From Hydractinia symbiolongicarpus (Eukaryota > Cnidaria > Hydrozoa > Anthoathecata > Hydractiniidae), in the NCBI RefSeq assembly GCF_029227915.1, contig NC_079886.1:16158501-16222500 (forward strand): DNA of 64,000 nt. The letters run 5' to 3'. This document shows positions 7,112-64,000 of the stretch, piece after piece. Position numbers and translations under genes: made by a program. The notes below the pieces were generated by a model. That model saw only the letters and a list, made by a program, of their open reading frames with translations. It was not told where the DNA came from and searched no databases. Positions within the stretch are counted from its first letter, which is position 1. Every line of letters starts with the position of its first letter.

Positions 7112-9250
7112 TCACATGTTTATGTGATTCTTAAGGCCAATACATCTTCTTATTTGAAAGCAAATTATTTTAAAAATAGCAACAACAACTAAAACAACAA
7201 TAATTAACAATGGTGCTGTTAAAATGACATGTTGAATCCAAACACTGTTTATGATTGCATTGATGCCAGGTACATTTGATTGATCGTTCATGTAAACAAA
7301 AGCATAAAACAAGTTCGCGATATTGATTATCATCAAAAAAGACAACGAAATAGTGTCTAATGGGTATTAAAATGTTGCTACGATATGGCGACACATAAAG
7401 ACGATGTACAAGGTAAGATAACAGTAAAGGTATCGTTAACCTTATTCATGCAACTGGATTCATCAAAAAATTGCAAATGACGGCAATCAATAATCGCCGC
7501 ACAATTACTACTGACTCCCAATTGTTTGGCCAGATCTGCTTAATCTAAACGCACCAGTAAACATTTCACATACGTCCTGGATTTTTTAAATTCATCTCTG
7601 TTAACATTGAAGGTGATCTGGCGATAAACATTGTGAAAGTAGTGATAGAAAGACGCAAGGGAAAAAGCTAAGAAGAAGTTTTAGGTTCAGTTTTCTTCTT
7701 TGCAGCATTTTTATCGAAAATGATCAGAATGAAATATTGCCACCATGTGTAACATATAATATCAGCTTTGATAAACAAGTGGTTCTGGTTACCTATTTCC
7801 ACACAATGGAGCATGGTTAAACAAAATGTGGCCACACCAGTGTAACTAAGTAAAGCGACTTGTATGAAGCAGCTCCATATTTTGTCCATGACTTGACATT
7901 GGCTAAAATGTTCAAAACATTTTGATTTTATCTGTTTTTTTATTTGAAGAATGAGAACAATGAAACCAACAGCAAAAACGAGCACCAAGAATAGCATGAA
8001 CACGTTGCTTATTTTGATTACTCGTTTAGAAACAGCAACAAGATTATTAACGGGACATATTTTCGATAAGTATAATTAAATCAACTCAAAGTCAAATATG
8101 TTCGAGATTGTGGTTTTAAATTGCTGTAAATAACCGTAACTGTCTTGTTCTCTGGCTGGTATATGTATCAAAACTTCTATTTGGTAAAAAAAATATAGAA
8201 TGGTCTTTATGCTAGAAGCAATGTAGCTATTCTCATTGTCGCTGTTTCGTTTTTCAGTTTTGTTTTTTATTCTTTTTTATTCTTCTTCTTCTTTTCTTCT
8301 TCTTTTCTTCTTCTTTTCTTCTTCTTTTCTTCTTCTTTTTCTTCTTCTTTTTCTTCTTCTTCTTCTTCTTCTTCTTCTTCTTCTTCTTCTTCTTCTTCTT
8401 CTTCTTCTTCTTCTTCTTCTTCTTCTTCTTCTTCTTCTTCTTCTTCTTCTTCTTCTTCTTCTTCTTCTTCTTCTTCTTCTTCTTCTTCTTCTTCTTCTTC
8501 TTCTTCTTCTTCTTCTTCTTCTTCTTCTTCTTCTTCTTCTTCTTCTTCTTCTTCTTCTTCTTCTTCTTCTTCTTCTTCTTCTTCTTCTTCTTCTTCTTCT
8601 TCTTCTTCTTCTTCTTCTTCTTCTTCTTCTTCTTCTTCTTCTTCTTCTTCTTCTTCTTCTTCTTCTTCTTCTTCTTCTTCTTCTTCTTCTTCTTCTTCTT
8701 CTTCTTCTTCTTCTTTTTCAAATAAAACATAGACGACACATTCTACCCTGTGGTAGATAAATTTCTTCTTAAAAGCAAAATAATTTGGTCCTTGTTCACA
8801 AAGTATTTTGACATAGCCATCATTAAAAATACAAACACTTTTTTATAGTACAACAAGAGAATCACGTAACACACACTATACATTACATACAACAACCATG
8901 ACGATGCTGTATGACAACCATCACTCTTAACACAGTTGTCACTGAAGTAGTTCAATGGAAACCCTTTTATGCACGTTTCACATAAAATCTCTTCTTCGTG
9001 TTTCTTGTAGTCATTATAGGATTCACATTGACGGGAACAGGAGTGAGACGAAGGGCACAGCAGAAAGTGTATATGATTATCTCTATTAACATATCCCCAA
9101 AAATGACCTTGAATTTTAATTTCGTAGTCACACCTTCCGCCTGGAGGACATGTTATGCATGTAAGATTAGATCCTTTTGTAATGAAGTTTTCTTCTTTGA
9201 AACTTCCTGAAAACGTAATAATGCTTTTATCGAGCACTACGAGTTGAGTG
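7112..9250 (-). pseudogene. cysteine-rich multi-pass membrane protein, decayed
   Basis: On the minus strand, 9240-8760 encodes an extracellular Cys-rich block: CITCPPGGRCDYEI, HFWGYVN, LLCPSSHSCSRQC, then ETCIKGFPLNYFSDNC. A first TM helix follows (WLLYVMYSVCYVILLLYY). Further TM segments are at 8003-7668 (VFMLFLVLVFAVGFIVLIL; HCVEIGNQNHLFIKADIICYTWWQYF), about 7500-7390 (WESVVIVRRLLIAVICNFL) and 7345-7112. I associate this Cys-block plus serial-TM layout with a large family of uncharacterised cnidarian receptor-like proteins; that is from memory. An in-frame TGA near 7447 and frame changes between blocks argue for a pseudogene, although some gaps could be introns. The 5' end is cut by the DIRS element near 9250. 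Confidence 0.55.
8281..8715. repeat. (TTC)n/(GAA)n trinucleotide microsatellite, ~435 bp
   Basis: Imperfect CTT/TTTTC units at 8281-8351 run into an essentially pure TTC tract at 8352-8715, about 120 uninterrupted triplets. It lies between coding blocks of the Cys-rich membrane gene, where an intron would be expected. The poly-Leu and poly-Lys frames it produces are artefacts. Confidence 0.97.
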
Positions 9251-56605: not shown

Positions 56606-57460
56606 AACTCCAACCTCCTAACTTTTTTCCATCTATATGCATATGCTATCCAATATTTTTAATGCTTTTGTTCAAGAGCAAATACATTGAAACATAAAAT
56701 ATTTAAAATAATAAAAGCAGTAATTTGCAGTGTCTCGTATAAAATAACTTTTACTGAATCGTAAAGGGTAACTTATTATAATGGAGATAACGCATTTCTG
56801 GAAAGACTTTCTCCACAGTAAGGTGTTTAGTAAATGTGTAATTTTTCTCTCTTCTTTTCAATTCAGGTTTCACGTTACCATTTTACCGGGTCAACTGCGT
56901 TCAGGTATGAACGGTAAAATACTTTACATGTTACACTCAAAAACAGGTGAAAAAAACACAGGCAGGGGACCAATCATTTCTTTGTTTCCAATATTGAAAA
57001 AATGTTTAACACGGCTTTATTACAAAAAAAAAATAAACTAAAAAAATTAAACGCGGATTTAAATTGAGTTTTATCGAGTTGTCCTTAGACAAAGCATATA
57101 GTACAGAGATCTCTATTAAAATTAAACGCCTTCGATATATTTAAAAATAAACGGATTTACGTATGCTATGTTATCGGAAACTCTTGCGAAAAAATTAGTG
57201 TGGAAAGGAAAAGGTGGGGTATTAAATCCACAATAAATTTCTTTTATCTATTTATCCTACGACGATAGCATTAGTTTTTAGGCCTATCCTAAATAAGCAA
57301 ATCACCAAGCCAGCAAGTTTACACCACTAAGCAAATCGTTTTATTCCTTCTTGTTCTTGCTACTTCAGAAATCACAAATACGTAAAAAACGTGGCCATGC
57401 AAGTTGAGAAGAATTATTCCTGATCAAGAAAATGTATATAATCACGTGATTTTGATGAAT
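56606..57460. other. gene-free stretch left of virus-like cluster
   Basis: AT-rich; an 86-codon frame at 56781-57041 has no motif. No terminal repeat of the cluster could be identified here. Confidence 0.45.
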
Positions 57461-57483
57461 GGTTAATGAAAGATAAGTTTAAA

Positions 57484-58206
57484 GGCCAGAAGGGTTGGCC
57501 AACGAAATGAAAATTGGATTGAGGCTGTTGAAAAAGATCACTGGGCACTCAGGTATATCCTCAACAGGTTCAAGACGCAGGGCATGTGCAATAAGGCAGT
57601 TTGGGAGGACCTCTGGATGCTCGAATATGTGCCAGATCGGCCCAAGACGCAGGAAATGTGCAATAAGGCTGTTAAAAGGGAACCCGACATGTTTGATTAT
57701 GTACCAGATCAATTCAAGACCCAGGATATATGCAGGCTATTTAAAAGAATCCCGGGATCCTCAAAAATGTGCCGGATAGGTTCAAGACGCAGTGCATGTG
57801 TAACGAGACTGTTGAAAAGTATCCCCTTGCACTCGAGGATGTGACGGATGAATTCAAGACGCAGGACATGTGTAACAAAGTTGTTGGGGAGGAGCCCGAC
57901 ATGCTAATGTATGTGCCGGAACGGCTGAAGACGCGGGATATGTGCAGCAGGGCTGTCGAAAAGTATCCCTACGCGCTAGAGCATGTCCCGGATCAGTTGA
58001 AAACGCAAGACATAAGTGACAGGGTCGTTAAAAGGTTTAACTGGCTATTCCGATATATACCGGACTGGTTTGTCACCCGGGACATGTGCCCCAGAGTTTC
58101 CGAAAATGAGCCTGAATTACTCTCCGCCTACCAGCAAAGGAAAGCCGAAAAGGCTAGAATTAAGGGGGAGTTGGCTCCAATAACATTGGTACTTTTCAGA
58201 GGATGA
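57484..58206 (+). pseudogene. 24-residue tandem-repeat protein, array I
   Basis: Eight copies of a 24-residue (72-bp) unit of form VPDRxKTQxMCNKAVExxxxxLEY. KTQ-type signatures recur from 57571 every 72 bases (KTQGMC, KTQEMC, KTQDIC, KTQCMC, KTQDMC, KTRDMC, KTQDIS, VTRDMC). A +1 frameshift lies near 57765. After the array comes a basic tail (AYQQRKAEKARIKGEL) ending at 58206; a further shift near 58185 would extend into an acidic end. Each unit would form a helical hairpin, giving a solenoid. From memory, similar repeats occur in uncharacterised cnidarian and arthropod proteins. Start codon not established. Function unknown; protein binding is a guess. Confidence 0.7.
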
Positions 58207-58245
58207 AAAGGAAGATCTTTAAAGGTTGTCGGGATTGGCTTAGGC

Positions 58246-58284
58246 GGTTACTACTAATATATACTACTACTAATACTACTAATA
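58246..58284. repeat. (TAC/TAA)n microsatellite between repeat ORFs
   Basis: TACTACTAATATATACTACTACTAATACTACTAATAA immediately precedes the ATG of array II. Confidence 0.8.
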
Positions 58285-58287
58285 AAG

Positions 58288-58575
58288 ATGAGTTTCAGGA
58301 CACAAGACATGTGCAATAAGGCTGTTGAAAAGGAGCCATGGCTGCTGGAGTATGTACCGGACCGACTCAAGACGCGGGACATGTGTAATAAAGTTGTTGA
58401 AAAAGATCACTGGCTGCTAATGCTTGTACAGGATAGGTTCAAAACGCAGGAAATGTGTAATGGGGCCGTTGAAAAAAATCCACGCATGCTCAAATATATA
58501 TCAGATAGGATCAAGACACAGGACATGTGCAATAAGGCTGTTAAAAAGGATCCCGAGGTACTCGAATATGTGTAA
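58288..58575 (+). CDS. 24-residue tandem-repeat protein, array II
   Basis: 95 codons from ATG 58288 (MSFRTQDMCNKAVEKEP), comprising four units of the same 24-residue repeat (RTQDMC, KTRDMC, KTQEMC, KTQDMC) and an abrupt stop after LEYV. It is closely related to array I and probably a duplicate or broken remainder of one long gene. The frame is intact within the array. Short length suggests truncation. Confidence 0.65.
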   Translation: MSFRTQDMCNKAVEKEPWLLEYVPDRLKTRDMCNKVVEKDHWLLMLVQDRFKTQEMCNGAVEKNPRMLKYISDRIKTQDMCNKAVKKDPEVLEYV

Positions 58576-58617
58576 CATAATAAAATGTGGATCAAATGTC
58601 AATATAGCTTGAAAAGT

Positions 58618-58761
58618 ATGATTTTTATGACCTTCTTTACCGCTATCGGTCTATCCCTACCACTTGTATCCCTAGCATGTGTGCAAGAGGAGAAGGAGGA
58701 GTCTAATGAACGGAGAATTAAAGATTTGGAGGCTCGTCTGGACTTGCTAATAAACGAATGA
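58618..58761 (+). CDS. 47-aa protein with lipobox-like signal and helical tail
   Basis: MIFMTFFTAIGLSLPLVSLAC is a hydrophobic signal-like segment ending in LVSLAC, which mimics a lipobox. It is followed by a charged helix (EEKEESNERRIKDLEARLDL) and a stop TGA at 58759-58761. The following Cys-rich reading begins in the +1-shifted frame at the same place without its own ATG. The two may therefore be one protein split by a frame error or a slip. In a eukaryotic setting a signal peptide or TM anchor is more likely than lipidation. Confidence 0.45.
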   Translation: MIFMTFFTAIGLSLPLVSLACVQEEKEESNERRIKDLEARLDLLINE

Positions 58762-58963
58762 AGAATGCAATGACTGTGAAAGGGTACTCGATGCATATGA
58801 CAAATGTACCTGCGGACGTAAGTTTGTGGTAGGTGGTAAAATGCTATGCTGGTACTACTATCACGAATATATCACATATAACGGGGGCGGCTGTGCATGC
58901 ACCATGACATGTAATTCTCTGAAGTCGTTCGAATTATATAATAAACAAGATGCTGAAATTTGA
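58754..58963 (+). CDS. Cys-rich peptide without its own start codon
   Basis: Open reading from 58754: NEECNDCERVLDAYDKCTCG, then GGKMLCWYYYHEYITYNGGG and CACTMTCNSLKSFE, to TGA 58961-58963. Eight Cys as CxxC, CxC, C, CxCxxxC, suited to disulfides or metal binding. Tandem TAA stops lie just upstream, and there is no ATG before the first Cys pairs. It needs joining to the upstream signal-like protein or an unseen start. Its stop overlaps the next gene's ATG (58950) by 14 bases. Confidence 0.45.
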   Translation, partial: TNEECNDCERVLDAYDKCTCGRKFVVGGKMLCWYYYHEYITYNGGGCACTMTCNSLKSFELYNKQDAEI

Positions 58964-59204
58964 GAACGAATTTGTAAAATCTAATATATTCTATAATTTT
59001 GCTGCTACCTTTACAAACATCGAGGATATTAATATAGAATACCTTACGGTATCGGATCCCATGCCTGCCAATGGAGGTAAGGACAAACGATATGTGGTAG
59101 GGTACCATACACAGGACCTTGTGGTGGCCTTGAGGGTAAAGACGCCTAAAATCTGGTCCCCGAATGGGGTAACTAAATATAACACAATGCATCAGCGGCA
59201 ATGA
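58950..59204 (+). CDS. uncharacterised protein with YVVGYHTQD motif
   Basis: 84 aa from ATG 58950 (MLKFENEFVKSNIFYNFAAT). Beta-rich with LTVSDPMPANGGKDKRYVVG and YHTQDLVVALRVKTP, and NGVTKYN near the end. The stop TGA (59202-59204) overlaps the ATG of the next reading (59201) as ATGA. I believe related proteins recur in cnidarian genome annotations and are longer, so this and the next frame may be one gene with a frame break. No biochemical function known. Confidence 0.5.
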   Translation: MLKFENEFVKSNIFYNFAATFTNIEDINIEYLTVSDPMPANGGKDKRYVVGYHTQDLVVALRVKTPKIWSPNGVTKYNTMHQRQ

Positions 59205-59344
59205 GCCTCGATTTCCAGGAGTATCCAGACTGGATCACGAAATATCGTCAAGTATGGTCAAAAGTCGAAGAGTTGGTACTACCACCAAGTTCTATAGTAT
59301 GCCGGTACCCTATGATGAACCCTGCCAAGCCAGCATTATTCTAG
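59201..59344 (+). CDS. 47-aa continuation frame after ATGA overlap
   Basis: MSLDFQEYPDWITKYRQVWS then KVEELVLPPSSIVCRYPMMN, stop 59342-59344. Either an independent small protein translated through the ATGA junction, or the shifted C-terminus of the YVVGYH protein. It is followed by a hairpin before the convergent minus-strand gene. Confidence 0.4.
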   Translation: MSLDFQEYPDWITKYRQVWSKVEELVLPPSSIVCRYPMMNPAKPALF

Positions 59345-59433
59345 TCTTTTCTTCTGTATACGCATAAGGTTAAAATCACTACCCCCAGACACACATCATA
59401 GAATGTGGTTACTAAGCGAGGTCTAGAAAAACC

Positions 59434-59471
59434 ATATATTTTATAGGCTTCGTATGACCTATAAAATATAT
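59434..59471. terminator. perfect 14-bp hairpin between convergent genes
   Basis: ATATATTTTATAGG (59434-59447), loop CTTCGTATGA, CCTATAAAATATAT (59458-59471). It sits in the 205-base gap between the plus-strand genes ending 59344 and the minus-strand gene ending 59549, a position suited to bidirectional 3'-end formation. Terminator role is inferred from position. Confidence 0.55.
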
Positions 59472-59548
59472 ACAAAATTAAGGCCTACATTCGGGTGGGG
59501 ACTCTACATAGTGCTTGCATATTGCACAGATTGAAGCTTTTTTAAAAT

Positions 59549-60120
59549 TTAGTCTTTCCCCTCCTTCCTACCCTTGGCAACCAACTGGACACGTCCCTGT
59601 TCGTTGATAGCATTCACGATCCTATTAAACCTCATTTGTTCCTTGAGCAACATATACCTCTCCTTTTCACGGCTAATTAGGCTATACTCATGGTCACTGA
59701 TAATACCATTTCCCATTGCCTTGCTGATCAGATCAACGATGGAGTTTAATTTCGCCTCCGCAAGCAGCCTTATGCCCTCATGTTTTTTGGATTTAACACG
59801 TAGACGTTTTGAAGCTTTTCGGAGACCGGCCTGCCCTATTCCGGTGGCAAACGCGAGTCCCCCCATGGCAAAGGCCAGGGGAACCTCCAAACCCGAGGCC
59901 ATAGCTCCAATACCAAGCCACAACGTAATCACACTTACGCCAAGCAATCCATGGTCGCAGAAGTGTACCCCCATATTGTGTATTTTAAATTTTTTCGTCA
60001 ATCGCCAATTTCATACCTGAGATATTGTTCAATCTCCTCAATTTTATTCAGCCTAAAAACTTGTCCCTCATCCTGATCACAGTCTTGCGCGGGTGCACTC
60101 GGCAAACTCGGATATAACTT
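59549..60120 (-). pseudogene. membrane protein with hydrophobic core and helical tail, one frameshift
   Basis: The N-terminal part (about 60120-60003) reads LYPSLPSAPAQDCDQDEGQ then FRLNKIEEIEQYLRYEIGD. A frame change at about 60001 leads to the 150-codon frame (KKFKIHNMGVHFCDHG). Two hydrophobic segments follow (LLGVSVITLWLGIGAMASGL; VPLAFAMGGLAFATGIGQAG), then a basic turn (RLRVKSKKHEGIR) and helices (LLAEAKLNSIVDLISKAMGN; ISDHEYSLISREKERYMLLK). No in-frame ATG for the N-terminal part was found. I recall this protein type as recurrent and uncharacterised in cnidarian genomes. A membrane or holin-like role is only a guess from shape. Confidence 0.5.
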
Positions 60121-60165
60121 ACTTATATCACTTATTTATTCTATCAGCAAATGCATTGTGATGTC

Positions 60166-60182
60166 AAAAACGTGACGTTTTT
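60166..60182. promoter_or_regulatory. palindrome AAAAACGT-G-ACGTTTTT in divergent intergenic region
   Basis: 8-bp arms around one G, in the space between the divergent membrane-protein (-) and LYVSTEP (+) genes. Position suggests a shared operator or promoter element; no factor identified. Confidence 0.35.
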
Positions 60183-60243
60183 CTCATGATGATAGATGTC
60201 CGTTAGCATGATACAACCACTCTGCAAAGTACAAAAGTAACAG

Positions 60244-61419
60244 GGGGGATGGTCACTTGGTGTAAGCAATTTGGAGCATCAGGATCTGTACGTGAGTACA
60301 GAGCCCCATATTTCTGTGGTATTCTCAGAATTCACCAAGTACGCCATAAAGGTCCCAAAAACCTACCTTGATGACCCTGTTAATGTGAATTGGAAAGGGC
60401 AAGCGTTGGACTACTGGAATATTCAAGTGAACTTTGCCACACACTGTGCAACGACGGCCTTGGGCATCTGTAGCAAACACATGACGGTCTCGGTACCCCT
60501 CATCAACAGTATTTTCAAGTTTCACACGTACTATCATATGCGTCGTATTCTGGCATGGATGAAGGTCTCCATGCCATTTGACGATGGGTTCTCAAAGTAC
60601 AAAAACCCATACTCTACATCTGGATACGCACAGGTATGCCGCGAATACACCGCAGATCCCAATAGTCTGTACAAGTTTAAGGCCGTCATGTCGTCGTTGA
60701 CAAATGGTAGATGGTGGCCGCAGGTTGATGGGGATTGAGCAAAATGGATCATGCCAACAAGTCAGGGCTTAACATCTGAAGGGCTGACCAAGCTGAGTGA
60801 GAGTATTCGCGCCTGCGTGGTCTTATTGCTGGGGTCTCAGGCCGGTGCCAAAGCATCCCTGATTGGCTCCAATTCAGAAAATTATACAGCAAGACAAATT
60901 CTAGTACAAAAATTCGAGGCTATGATCCAAAGGCAAGAAAATGTAAGCCATGACATCACCGAATTTCAGAAGGTACTCCAGTATGCCAGGACCCCGGTGA
61001 ACTCTGCTGTAATGCACCACGTGTACATGCTGCCCAGTGACATGAATCTACGTATGGCGAGGATTGTGGGATATAACAACAACATCCTCATAACACCGGC
61101 CAGCGCCATTATTGGCATCAGGCTTGACCTGAATAACAAGCCTATTGTGCGGCATGCGTCTGCCACACCCCTCGAGCATACTATCAAAACATCCATACAT
61201 ACCCAAGCCATGCCGGGCCCCTATACCTCCTGTACATTCTCCCAATCATACTATGCCCCCGATCATACCATACAGGCCATACCATCTATACCTTCCGGCC
61301 CCACAACATCGTCTCCCATACCCGAACAAATCCACCCAAACCAACACGAGGATACCAAGACCACCATAATTATGGCAGGGGTAGGTCTCATTTTGGCCTA
61401 TATTTGGTTGAAAAAATAG
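60244..61419 (+). pseudogene. LYVSTEP protein, ~390 aa, split by one in-frame TGA
   Basis: First part 60244-60738: SLGVSNLEHQDLYVSTEPHI, then FTKYAIKVPKTYLDDPVNVN, NIQVNFATHCATTALGICSK, and a YYHMRRILAWM helix. It ends at TGA 60736-60738. Second part 60751-61419, in the same frame, starts MPTSQGLTSEGLTKLSESIR. It continues VVLLLGSQAGAKASLIGSNS, VMHHVYMLPSDMNLRMARIV, a Pro/Ser-rich linker and a C-terminal TM anchor (IIMAGVGLILAYIWLKK). The same frame and only four intervening codons indicate one ancestral gene, or readthrough. No ATG precedes the first part. Related unnamed proteins occur in cnidarians (memory). A tail-anchored virion or surface protein is an inference. Confidence 0.55.
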
Positions 61420-61462
61420 GGACTTATTTTACATATAGTACTACAAAACCGTATATAGATGT

Positions 61463-62676
61463 TTAATGTTTAACTGCATATGTAACGATGGTTGACGCTA
61501 CCCTCAGAAGGAAGGAGACCACTGTACCTATAATACCCGGCACTGCAACACCTGCTTTACCTGCTAGATATTTCAGAAAGTTCCCAATCTTTCAAGTTGC
61601 TTCTGCATGAACCCTTTTTCACCACCCTCTGCGGTTCCCCCTGCAGCACCTGCTGCCGCCAGCCCTCCTTCTGTAACGGCAAAGACAATGGTGGAAATTA
61701 GTAGACCTACAGCTTTTCAAGTAAAGGCATGTCATCCCCGACGATTTTCATCAACTCGGACTTAATATTCCGTAGATGCTTAAAAACCTCGGAGGAAATT
61801 AGACCATGCCTACCTAGTACAACATTTTCATCCTTCTTCAATTGATCAATATCTTCCTCCAGCCTGCCAATCTCCTGAGGTCTTTTCATCCCGGCCTTCT
61901 GCTTCTTGAACTCTTTTTTCAATTTACCCTTCTTCGTCTTGATGTCGCTTTCATATTTTATAATTTCACCCGTCACCTCCTTGATATTCTTCTGAGGGGT
62001 CTCAATTTTGATTTTTAATGATCTCATATCAACTGCGGGGGGGATCATTGTCAATGCCTGCAAATGAGGTATCCATATAGCCTTCAACGTCTTGGGCAAA
62101 ATTCTGAATACTATCAATCGTCTCCATCTCAATCACATCAGGCCTTATCAAAGTGGTCCTCTCATCATCCTTATCCCTATTCACAAGGACATTAACATCC
62201 TGGATGAGATTGTGGGCCTCTGTCCTACTACCTTTGTTGGAAGTTTGATACCCATCAAAGCCTATCGCTTTCATGCGTGTAGTACCTATCCTACTCTGGA
62301 GCTGTTTTATAGTTGGAAATTACCATCTTGCAACGTCAGTACTACTTCCGGTAGTAATTTCTTCCCTGTCACAACCTTCTTTATTCCAAGCTGACCATCT
62401 TCCCTCATTATAAACTTATCGTAATGTATCGCATTCGGCGTCATACTCAGCCCATCCCTAAGATTGGTGTATAGGCTATCAACCTTCGATTTAAATATTA
62501 CAGTCTCGTTCGACTCCATGCCCAACCCCAATCGCCTACGCGCACATACCCTGCTGCTGACCCGGCGTTAAAGTCCCTGATGTTCCGGAGGGTTGCGTTG
62601 ATTGTTCGGTATCCTCTTTGTCGCCCTTTTCATCTCTGCCTATATCCTCCTCGGGTGTAAATACTGGATTATCCAT
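61463..62676 (-). pseudogene. coiled-coil and C-terminal TM protein, ~400 aa, several frameshifts
   Basis: ATG at 62676-62674 (MDNPVFTPEEDIGRDEKGDK), polar N-terminus, frame change near 62545. Next come SNETVIFKSKVDSLYTNLRD (62531-62307) and EAHNLIQDVNVLVNRDKDDE (62274-62029). The coiled coil spans 62000-61750: NIKEVTGEIIKYESDIKTKK, then EIGRLEEDIDQLKKDENVVL. After another shift near 61707 comes a TM/Gly-rich end: VGLLISTIVFAVTEGGLAAA, then LAGKAGVAVPGIIGTVVSFL, with the stop at 61463-61465. A coiled-coil stalk plus hydrophobic C-terminus suggests a fibre, tail or membrane-active protein; inference only. It starts 33 bases from the divergent gene at 62709 and ends 44 bases from the convergent LYVSTEP gene. 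Confidence 0.55.
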
Positions 62677-62708
62677 TTATTTACCATATAATAAATAAGT
62701 ATGAACGC
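62677..62708. promoter_or_regulatory. short divergent promoter region
   Basis: AT-rich 32 bases (TTATTTACCATATAATAAATAAGTATGAACGC) between the ATG codons of two divergent genes; contains TATAATAAATA. A shared bidirectional promoter is inferred from geometry alone. Confidence 0.35.
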
Positions 62709-63369
62709 ATGCGGTATTCTGATGGACCCTTACGCAGAAAGCAAGCAGCTTCTTGGTATGAAAGGACGCCTGTAAAGAGTCCAGATTTCCCATACCCCAT
62801 CAACCATTGACCAGAAACACAAAATGATGTCATTATCCCGGGTAGCTTGAAGCTTCTATTTGATCTGACGCTGACCGGAACCAACATGACACGTACGATC
62901 GTATCGAATATAGGGAAAATCTGGTGAAAAATCTACTTATTACCCTAAATAACAAAGAGGTTCAAAATATATCGGATTACAATATCCTGGCATTGTATAG
63001 GCCTATGCTGGTGTTAACGAAACGTTTTATAACCCAAAACTCGAGAAGATTAGCATCACTGTCGAGGGGGAGCCAAACGAATTGTATAGCCATGCCATGC
63101 TCCCAAAAAACCATCTCGAGCAAATCGTCAATATCTTTGGCAGACGCTGGAACTCCAATGTAACCATCGAGCATTTTTTTAATGAACGGTATGCCCTGTT
63201 TGTGGATTTCTGTAGCTCACCTGATGACGTGCTACAAGGTAGTGGTAGACCACTAGAGCGAGTAAGTGATGGCATCACTCTACATATCACCAAAGAAGCC
63301 GATGGAACCGGTGATTTTAAATGCTACGTGTACCTGTTACATCCTGGATGGCAGGCTGGACCGTGTTGA
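62709..63369 (+). pseudogene. beta-rich capsid-like candidate with internal deletion
   Basis: ATG 62709 (MRYSDGPLRRKQAASWYERT), an in-frame TGA at about 62807, then VIIPGSLKLLFDLTLTGTNM and TRTIVSNIGK. A shift near 62915 leads to LLITLNNKEVQNISDYNILA and LYRPMLV. The sequence then jumps to FYNPKLEKISITVEGEPNEL near 63020, which suggests loss of a large middle part. The end is VTIEHFFNERYALFVDFCSS, GSGRPLERVSDGITLHITKE, and a beta strand before TGA 63369. Alternating-hydrophobic strands suggest jelly-roll folding, and a copy-rich family of such proteins exists in cnidarians (memory). Capsid identity is a hypothesis. AATAAA follows near 63380. Confidence 0.45.
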
Positions 63370-63765
63370 ATATTGAGTAAATAAAGGAACTATTACTGTG
63401 ATATCAGCCAAATCCGACAACTTCAACGCCTTATCTTTGATAACCTCGTAACAGAGTGCCCGATACTTATTCTCCTTAACTGAGACGATATGGAGCCCTA
63501 GGCGTTCAATATCATTCTCGAGATCATCATCGATCTCGCTTCTTGCAAATGTTGCCCATGCTTTTTCGCCTGATGCTATCCTGTGTAAAAGATCATCATC
63601 CGTGGGGTATTCAAAACCTTCATAGTATGCTCCGTCTCGATACCTAAAATTTTCTAGGCAGGTAGGGCAATAACTAGTTACTGATCCTGCCTTTATACAG
63701 CAATGCAGCACAGGTACCCGAATATCATAACCCCTTACTTGCTTTTTTTGTACATAGGCTTCCAT
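63337..63765 (-). CDS. 142-aa protein with paired-Cys motif
   Basis: Intact frame from ATG 63765 (MEAYVQKKQVRGYDIRVPVL). HCC at residues 21-24 and YCPTC at about 33-37 make a compact Cys cluster suited to zinc binding. An acidic region follows (FEYPTDDDLLHRIASGEKAW; EIDDDLENDIERLGLHIVSV). It overlaps the 3' end of the convergent plus-strand gene by 33 bases. Family not recognised. Unlike most neighbours its frame is unbroken. Confidence 0.6.
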   Translation of the reverse strand: MEAYVQKKQVRGYDIRVPVLHCCIKAGSVTSYCPTCLENFRYRDGAYYEGFEYPTDDDLLHRIASGEKAWATFARSEIDDDLENDIERLGLHIVSVKENKYRALCYEVIKDKALKLSDLADITVIVPLFTQYSTRSSLPSRM

Positions 63766-63937
63766 CTTTTTGATATTTCAGTATTTTTTATCTCGAAGCC
63801 AAACCGGTCAATGGGGTTGGGGTTGGGAAACCACCACTAAATGAGGATATTTTCGACTTATCGAGGGGGGCCATGGGAGATTCCCCACTTTTGATTACAA
63901 TTTTCACTACCCGCAAAAGTAGTGAAAAAGCGCCTGC

Positions 63938-64000
63938 TTATGACATATCGATGTCAAACATACCTTCGAATAGCTCGCGCGTATCATCATCGGGCAACGT
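63938..64000 (-). CDS. C-terminus of a further minus-strand gene (cut by window edge)
   Basis: The minus-strand reading LPDDDTRELFEGMFDIDMS ends at TAA 63938-63940. Acidic C-terminal tail; the rest lies beyond 64000. The 170 bases between it and the CxxC gene contain no other convincing frame. Confidence 0.5.
   Translation of the reverse strand, partial: TLPDDDTRELFEGMFDIDMS

Follow-up and report, generated by a model that had tools for sequence, protein, structure and literature searches.

Gene content and boundaries of the segment

The window in this study is a 64,000-nucleotide stretch of the genome of the hydrozoan Hydractinia symbiolongicarpus (C12:16158501-16222500), and its last few kilobases carry a dense set of genes that very probably represents an old, dead copy of a Polinton/Maverick virus-transposon, reaching from 57.4 to approximately 66.6 kb in window coordinates. 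Up to approximately 57.4 kb, the host DNA has a mean GC content of 0.335 (standard deviation 0.024, maximum 0.393 in 57 windows of 1 kb); six windows from 57.5 kb onward average 0.439. This step from 34% to 44% confirms the sharp change to GC-richer DNA that a first-pass annotation, made from the sequence alone, had reported at this point. This annotation closed the segment at 64000, the last position of the window; the element genes go on past this limit to approximately 66.6 kb, and host-level GC is regained by approximately 67.2 kb.

Many of the features described in the annotation are indeed present. The open reading frames (ORFs) are tightly packed on both strands in the ORF list, a divergent gene pair with a short gap lies near 62.68-62.70 kb, a hairpin separates two convergent genes, the solenoid repeats match DUF4116 (Pfam PF13475), and the membrane product, encoded at 59.5-60.0 kb, has one hydrophobic stretch; Cys-rich and coiled-coil-like products were seen by eye only. 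The tally of at least eleven genes does not stand, as it counts pieces of broken genes as genes, and the description as a whole is thereby confirmed in part. The features are listed below in window coordinates, where C and L numbers refer to contigs and loci of the same genome.

57518..58566, plus strand: remnant of a gene with DUF4116 solenoid repeats, in several frames (PF13475 at E 1.1e-5, 7.6e-14 and 8.7e-15 on three pieces; tblastn match to C10:24.72-24.73 Mb)
58754..58960, plus strand: small Cys-rich ORF without Pfam match (58749-58995 matches L023 at the DNA level; by eye, the ORF resembles the Cys98 ORF of another copy, L028:2547-2840)
59004..59412, plus strand: broken gene of the c176 family (tblastn, 70-82% identity to the C2:20.28 Mb copy)
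59434..59471, no strand: hairpin between convergent genes (-13.7 kcal/mol, z -6.2, equalled by 0 of 200 shuffles)
59528..60135, minus strand: TMcoil, a membrane/coiled-coil gene in two frames (tblastn, 46-48% to the C10:24.73 Mb copy)
60136..60222, minus strand: DNA stub, 3' end of the penton-candidate gene (60075-60224 matches L023 and 59788-60214 matches L025, both at the DNA level and extending into the gene end; no protein match)
60223..61416, plus strand: A1-family gene, split by an in-frame stop (tblastn, 69% to the C10:24.73 Mb copy, the match spanning the stop)
61427..62676, minus strand: coilTM, a gene with a coiled coil and a hydrophobic helix, broken in several frames (61427-62319 by tblastn, 65-80% to the C2:20.28 Mb copy; 62319-62676 from ORFs and a DNA match to L025)
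62695..63342, plus strand: remnant of the putative major capsid protein gene, frame-broken and missing a large internal part (46-85% by tblastn against the capsid ORFs of two copies)
63340..63777, minus strand: 146-aa ORF at the site of the integrase in other copies (no Pfam match; best NCBIfam E 0.027, far below the cut-off)
63966..64000 and on to 64477, minus strand: BRO-family remnant (tblastn)
64746..65318, past the window end, minus strand: broken ATPase gene (tblastn)
65591..66600, past the window end, minus strand: sequence resembling what lies upstream of the polymerase core (tblastn)

A database search with the A1 protein encoded at 60751-61416 gave 245 proteins at E <= 0.001 among 469 candidates, including H. 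symbiolongicarpus LOC130654364 (383 aa; E 2.1e-55, 67% over 68% of the 222-aa query). The full-length Hydractinia relatives that we read comprise 383-396 aa and have a hydrophobic C-terminus; A1 is probably a minor structural or membrane protein. The hairpin possibly acts as a shared terminator or polyadenylation region. Searches of the window for tRNAs and for Rfam families at gathering scores gave no match, a PHROGs search yielded nothing convincing (best E 0.0026), and phage records held no match to the ORF at 60241-60735.

Outside the element, the window contains a TTC repeat array at 8280-8719 (148 copies, 96%). Just past the right edge of the element, four TGACGTCA palindromes lie at 66880-67540 (L009:3379-4039), and a GC-rich block (0.42-0.43) that starts approximately 34 kb rightward, at 100502-103501 (L012), may be another element.

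Decay of the window copy

The small gap at 60735/60739, taken in the annotation for a boundary between two genes, lies inside one gene: 60241-60735 and 60739-61416 share a single frame and together match the 383-aa protein LOC130654364, so that the gap is a stop codon. Likewise, the DUF4116 repeats (57.5-58.57 kb), the gene at 61.4-62.7 kb, the capsid gene and the ATPase gene are each spread over several frames. The capsid gene lacks its middle, and the penton candidate is mostly deleted, with the DNA stub alone left at 60.1-60.22 kb. Integrase and polymerase core found no match in the window copy by tblastn. Given these absences and the loss of most of the penton candidate and of the capsid middle, the copy cannot replicate, integrate or package itself; it is a fossil with many lesions, dead and ordinary.

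At its right end, 65591-66600 matches ORFs of a second family (L038) at 43-46%. We read this part as the start of the polymerase region, since in a C10 copy a piece of the L038-type family matches immediately upstream of the polymerase core. The window A1 protein is 73-80% identical to the next nine rows of the own-genome search, and 81-85% identical over about the first 130-155 residues to many lower rows.

Relatives across the genome share one gene order

Own-genome searches, which covered 480.9 Mb in 76 contigs, gave at least 186 matches at E <= 0.001 for the A1 protein and at least 117 for the integrase of a C10 copy. Both counts are lower bounds, as 150 of 1,780 first-look candidates were scored for A1 and 116 of 2,200 for the integrase, and candidates are not copies. 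The relatives are spread over many chromosome-scale contigs of the assembly, and many of the A1 rows have stop-free open frames of 380-396 aa.

The native stretches that we read are C10:24.73 Mb, C2:20.28 Mb, C10:6.97 Mb with its near-identical C13 partner, and the ends of two C2 copies. For the gene order, one protein set was mapped onto each stretch separately. This mapping took in 18 of the 43 loci; it left out L001-L008 (host polymerase matches), L010-L012 (which lie to the right of the element), L013 (the window itself), L017 and L035 (already represented by L025 and L024), L029, L030 and L032-L034 (duplicate copy and flanks), and L038 and L039 (second family), and L040-L043 were mapped separately.

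Read with A1 forward, the order is TMcoil(-), penton candidate(-), A1(+), coilTM(-), capsid(+), tm113(+), integrase(+), BRO(-), ATPase(-), tm120(-), coil(-), polymerase(-), p214(-). Eight loci anchored on A1 (L014-L016 and L018-L022, all within the ten best rows of the own-genome A1 search) agree in that coilTM adjoins A1 and is followed by the capsid gene; the penton candidate lies on the other side of A1 in seven of them and is missing in L022. The order continues to integrase, ATPase and polymerase in 3/3 long copies, and capsid-tm113-integrase-BRO recurs in both integrase-anchored loci (L036, L037); within their reach, these five stretches agree with the order. Some genes vary: two of the three long copies carry Fic, which sits between BRO and ATPase in the first case but past tm120 in the second; the C2:20.28 Mb copy has a partial integrase and no BRO, tm113 or Fic match; and p214 was observed next to the polymerase region of the C10:6.97 Mb copy as well as at the ends of both C2 copies. 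The remnants in the window map in the same order as in the other copies (tblastn). The conserved order that the annotation proposed to look for among co-occurring homologs thus exists within the H. symbiolongicarpus genome.

These data also bear on the view that the segment consists of clustered host genes, or of a contaminant contig fused to host DNA. NCBI does model P0001, P0121, P0124 and P0128 as Hydractinia genes, each named 'uncharacterized protein', and the annotation was right, for Hydractinia, in pointing to unnamed multicopy proteins. The relatives, however, are co-localized instead of being dispersed as single host genes, lie on many chromosome-scale contigs instead of at one foreign join, keep one conserved order and have long open frames in many rows, and we give this view practically no credence.

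Two further observations concern the copies themselves. The C10:6.95-6.98 Mb and C13:24.68-24.71 Mb copies are 99.8% identical; fresh transposition was considered and rejected as an explanation, as the likeness extends into flanking reverse-transcriptase and satellite DNA. Here (L031, L028, partners L029-L034), a Polinton copy lies within a 372-bp satellite array, and the block with its flanks is common to two chromosomes at about 95-99.9% identity, by recent inter-chromosomal duplication or as an assembly effect. Moreover, there is a second Polinton-like family, represented by L038 (C7:32481501-32489500) and L039 (C5:17833501-17839500), whose integrase is 61-62% identical to that of the first; in 49 of the 117 listed integrase rows (counted by eye), its frame is open over 326-328 aa. 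L038 and L039 each consist of two copies arranged head to head, with inverted arms of approximately 2.8-3.0 kb at 99.8-99.9%, and L038 also carries a RING/Rho_N gene.

The capsid family and its neighbors

The capsid family, with a 426-aa protein, has 998 relatives at E <= 0.001 among 8,000 candidates scored. Within an alignment of 62 members, 59 match PF16903 Capsid_N at E <= 1 (best 3.6e-5), and the next most frequent Pfam family is matched by three. This match, weak but consistent, suggests a major capsid protein of the nucleocytoplasmic-virus type. The penton candidate is a gene of 225-235 aa separated from the capsid gene by two genes in seven of eight short loci and in all three long copies; it has no Pfam match.

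As a refinement compatible with a Polinton/Maverick origin, the segment might stem from a cnidarian-type integrating virus of a class apart from animal Mavericks, with replication and integration machinery as in these, but a separate capsid lineage shared with metagenome and genome sequences. Consistent with this, 115 of the best 120 capsid relatives listed are 35-50% identical to P0121, and in a published network no metazoan capsid genes other than those of cnidarians fall outside the main Maverick-Polinton cluster (PMC10120064). On the other hand, named organisms occur among these 120 relatives only for P0121, P0124, P0128 and P0149, and no locus was confirmed when viral and genome contigs were scanned for capsid, A1, polymerase or integrase. 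We therefore regard the refinement as conceivable and hold it tentatively. Separately, P0149 is listed in a metagenome-assembled genome of Candidatus Thiodiazotropha endolucinida, a clam symbiont, possibly because DNA of a host or virus ended up in the bacterial bin.

Replication, integration and accessory genes

The machinery that the window copy has lost is legible in its relatives. In the C10:24.73 Mb copy, the integrase matches PF00665 at 4.5e-6 (27.3 bits, below the curated cut-off of 32.6) and IS481 at 6.6e-12, with DD35E spacing, and the ATPase matches Pox_A32 at 1.9e-9, with Walker A (GPTSCGKT) and Walker B (FIVDD) motifs; this copy also encodes BRO-N (1.4e-14) and Fic (7.7e-13) domains. 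For the polymerase, the family-B motifs A, B and C (DANNLYG, NNSVFGKT and YMDTDS) were read by eye in an open 810-aa frame of a native copy, whose start gives the sole Pfam match, to Endonuclease_7 (9.6e-5). Sequence searches of the PDB with polymerase, A1 and capsid queries found nothing convincing and no solved structure for the capsid family (best E 0.0064, MecA, with a capsid piece). Own-genome matches of PF00136 (11 pieces at three loci) were set aside as probable host polymerases. Of the hallmarks that the annotation expected upon extension of the contig, polymerase motifs, an integrase, a packaging ATPase and, in one copy, terminal inverted repeats (TIRs) were found in the extended region or in other copies; an adenain-type protease was not, among the ORFs scanned.

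DUF4116 repeats, BRO-N, ankyrin repeats and A32-type ATPases are common in giant DNA viruses. All four are present here, and together with the Capsid_N match of the capsid family they could point to a fragment of an endogenized giant (nucleocytoplasmic large) DNA virus. Yet the genes recur in one order at many loci and include an RVE-type integrase, so that we see a short repeating unit in place of a large region rich in giant-virus core genes; one such unit, 14.8 kb long and bounded by TIRs and a short duplication, largely refutes this origin, which we consider very improbable.

Two further ORFs were noted. At L023:4649-5188, a chimeric ORF joins ankyrin repeats (Pfam Ank_3, 9e-15) in frame with a polymerase motif-B stretch. 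At L025:4136-5167 (C2:20.28 Mb), an integrase remnant adjoins an ORF in which Cys-rich ECKG/ICPH units recur and the end is HNH-like, as judged by eye and with no convincing Pfam match; the arrangement looks like the entry of a homing-type gene into the integrase.

Element ends and weighing of the Polinton assignment

The 14.8-kb unit, C2:36466134-36480970, of which we read the ends and an integrase match, has TIRs of 494-498 bp (98.4%) that coincide with GC steps, and the 5-bp sequence ATTTG on both sides. This sole target duplication differs from that of Polintons, which is usually 6 bp. A second C2 copy at 5.585-5.601 Mb has the same ends; its flanks match as well, at 98-99.9% in long alignments, which indicates a single insertion that was later duplicated. 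In the C10:6.97 Mb copy, the polymerase end aligns with the C2 TIR (79% over 113 bp and 95% over a further 243 bp) and abuts the 372-bp satellite array; at the DUF4116-side end of a full copy, the repeat was not seen.

Several findings speak against the assignment. TIRs and target duplication rest on one independent event, and in this copy the left TIR, in which p214 begins, passes directly into A1 at residue 70; as the genes usually found left of A1 are gone, the copy is rearranged. For the window copy, no TIR or target duplication was found, and neither the window nor L009 matches the C2 TIR at E <= 1e-3. A 59-bp direct repeat that flanks the window copy (57420-57478 and 67458-67516) was rejected as a target duplication on account of a second, weaker copy on the right side, and looks like a host repeat. 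Past the ATPase, the window copy matches L038 ORFs, and neither p214 nor the polymerase core of the C10 copies gave a match there. At the protein level, P0121 itself has no Pfam match, and its relatives, taken individually, match the capsid domain weakly; the identity of the penton candidate is a guess from its position; the Pfam family-B polymerase (DNA_pol_B_2) is not reported for the polymerase even at E <= 10; and no adenain/adenovirus-type protease was found among the ORFs scanned with Pfam, a subset of all ORFs.

Despite these points, we consider a decayed Polinton/Maverick copy, whose relatives share a conserved gene order, to be by far the best description of the segment. It agrees with the annotation's suggestion of a degraded virus-like element or self-synthesizing transposon, an interpretation that as a whole is supported in part. 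Judging from Polinton biology, an intact element would copy itself as linear DNA with its own family-B polymerase, and its integrase would insert the inverted-repeat ends into the host genome. Particles might be built by the packaging ATPase together with the capsid protein and the neighboring membrane and coiled-coil proteins.

In the genome of Hydractinia, a laboratory animal, integrase and A1 frames are open in many places, and at least one full-length capsid gene of this kind (P0121) is annotated; the open question of particle-making by animal Polintons could therefore be tested in this species. At the same time, at least four 'uncharacterized' gene models (P0001, P0121, P0124 and P0128) find an explanation and should be treated as mobile-element genes.

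Comparison with known systems

The annotation held that the class of element might be undescribed. The Polinton/Maverick kind is, however, already known in animals and has been reported in Hydra and Podocoryna (PMC4028283, PMC12220107, PMC13119343), so the segment does not represent a new class. In a survey that includes Hydra magnipapillata, Polintons are elements of 15-20 kb with a protein-primed polymerase, an RVE integrase, an FtsK-like ATPase, a protease, a double jelly-roll capsid protein and a penton protein (PMC4028283). The Hydractinia elements resemble them in their length of approximately 15 kb, the family-B polymerase, the RVE-type integrase, the A32/FtsK-type ATPase, the capsid and, in one copy, the TIRs. 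Besides the 5-bp target duplication, they differ in gene content: an adenovirus-type cysteine protease, present in 74% of Polintons according to the same text (PMC4028283), was not found among the ORFs scanned, and they carry accessory BRO-N, Fic, DUF4116, ankyrin and Rho_N/SAP-like genes.

Mavericks of other hydrozoans belong to the same class of element. In Podocoryna, Maverick accounts for 0.75% and is the first-named DNA transposon (PMC13119343, preprint), and in Hydra it is one of 14 families listed as putatively active, but does not rank with those expressed most highly (PMC12220107); in the portions accessible, both accounts count repeats, without gene content or capsids. A search of one open-access collection found no paper on Polintons or Mavericks in Hydractinia; the Maverick results it returned concern other species by title. 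By description, the Hydractinia elements also resemble the adintoviruses and midsize linear DNA viruses of animals, which likewise unite polymerase, integrase and virion genes (PMC11071296, preprint).

What is new, then, are the Hydractinia families and their accessory genes, and perhaps a divergent capsid lineage; the Hydractinia capsid family could be the outlying cnidarian one in the published network (PMC10120064). More broadly, we propose as a working idea, possible but short of probable, that hydrozoan Polintons form a separate viral lineage with its own capsid-gene module (capsid, coiled-coil/membrane protein, A1 and penton candidate), without an adenovirus-type protease and with giant-virus-like accessory genes, of which several families multiplied recently in Hydractinia and could still make particles.

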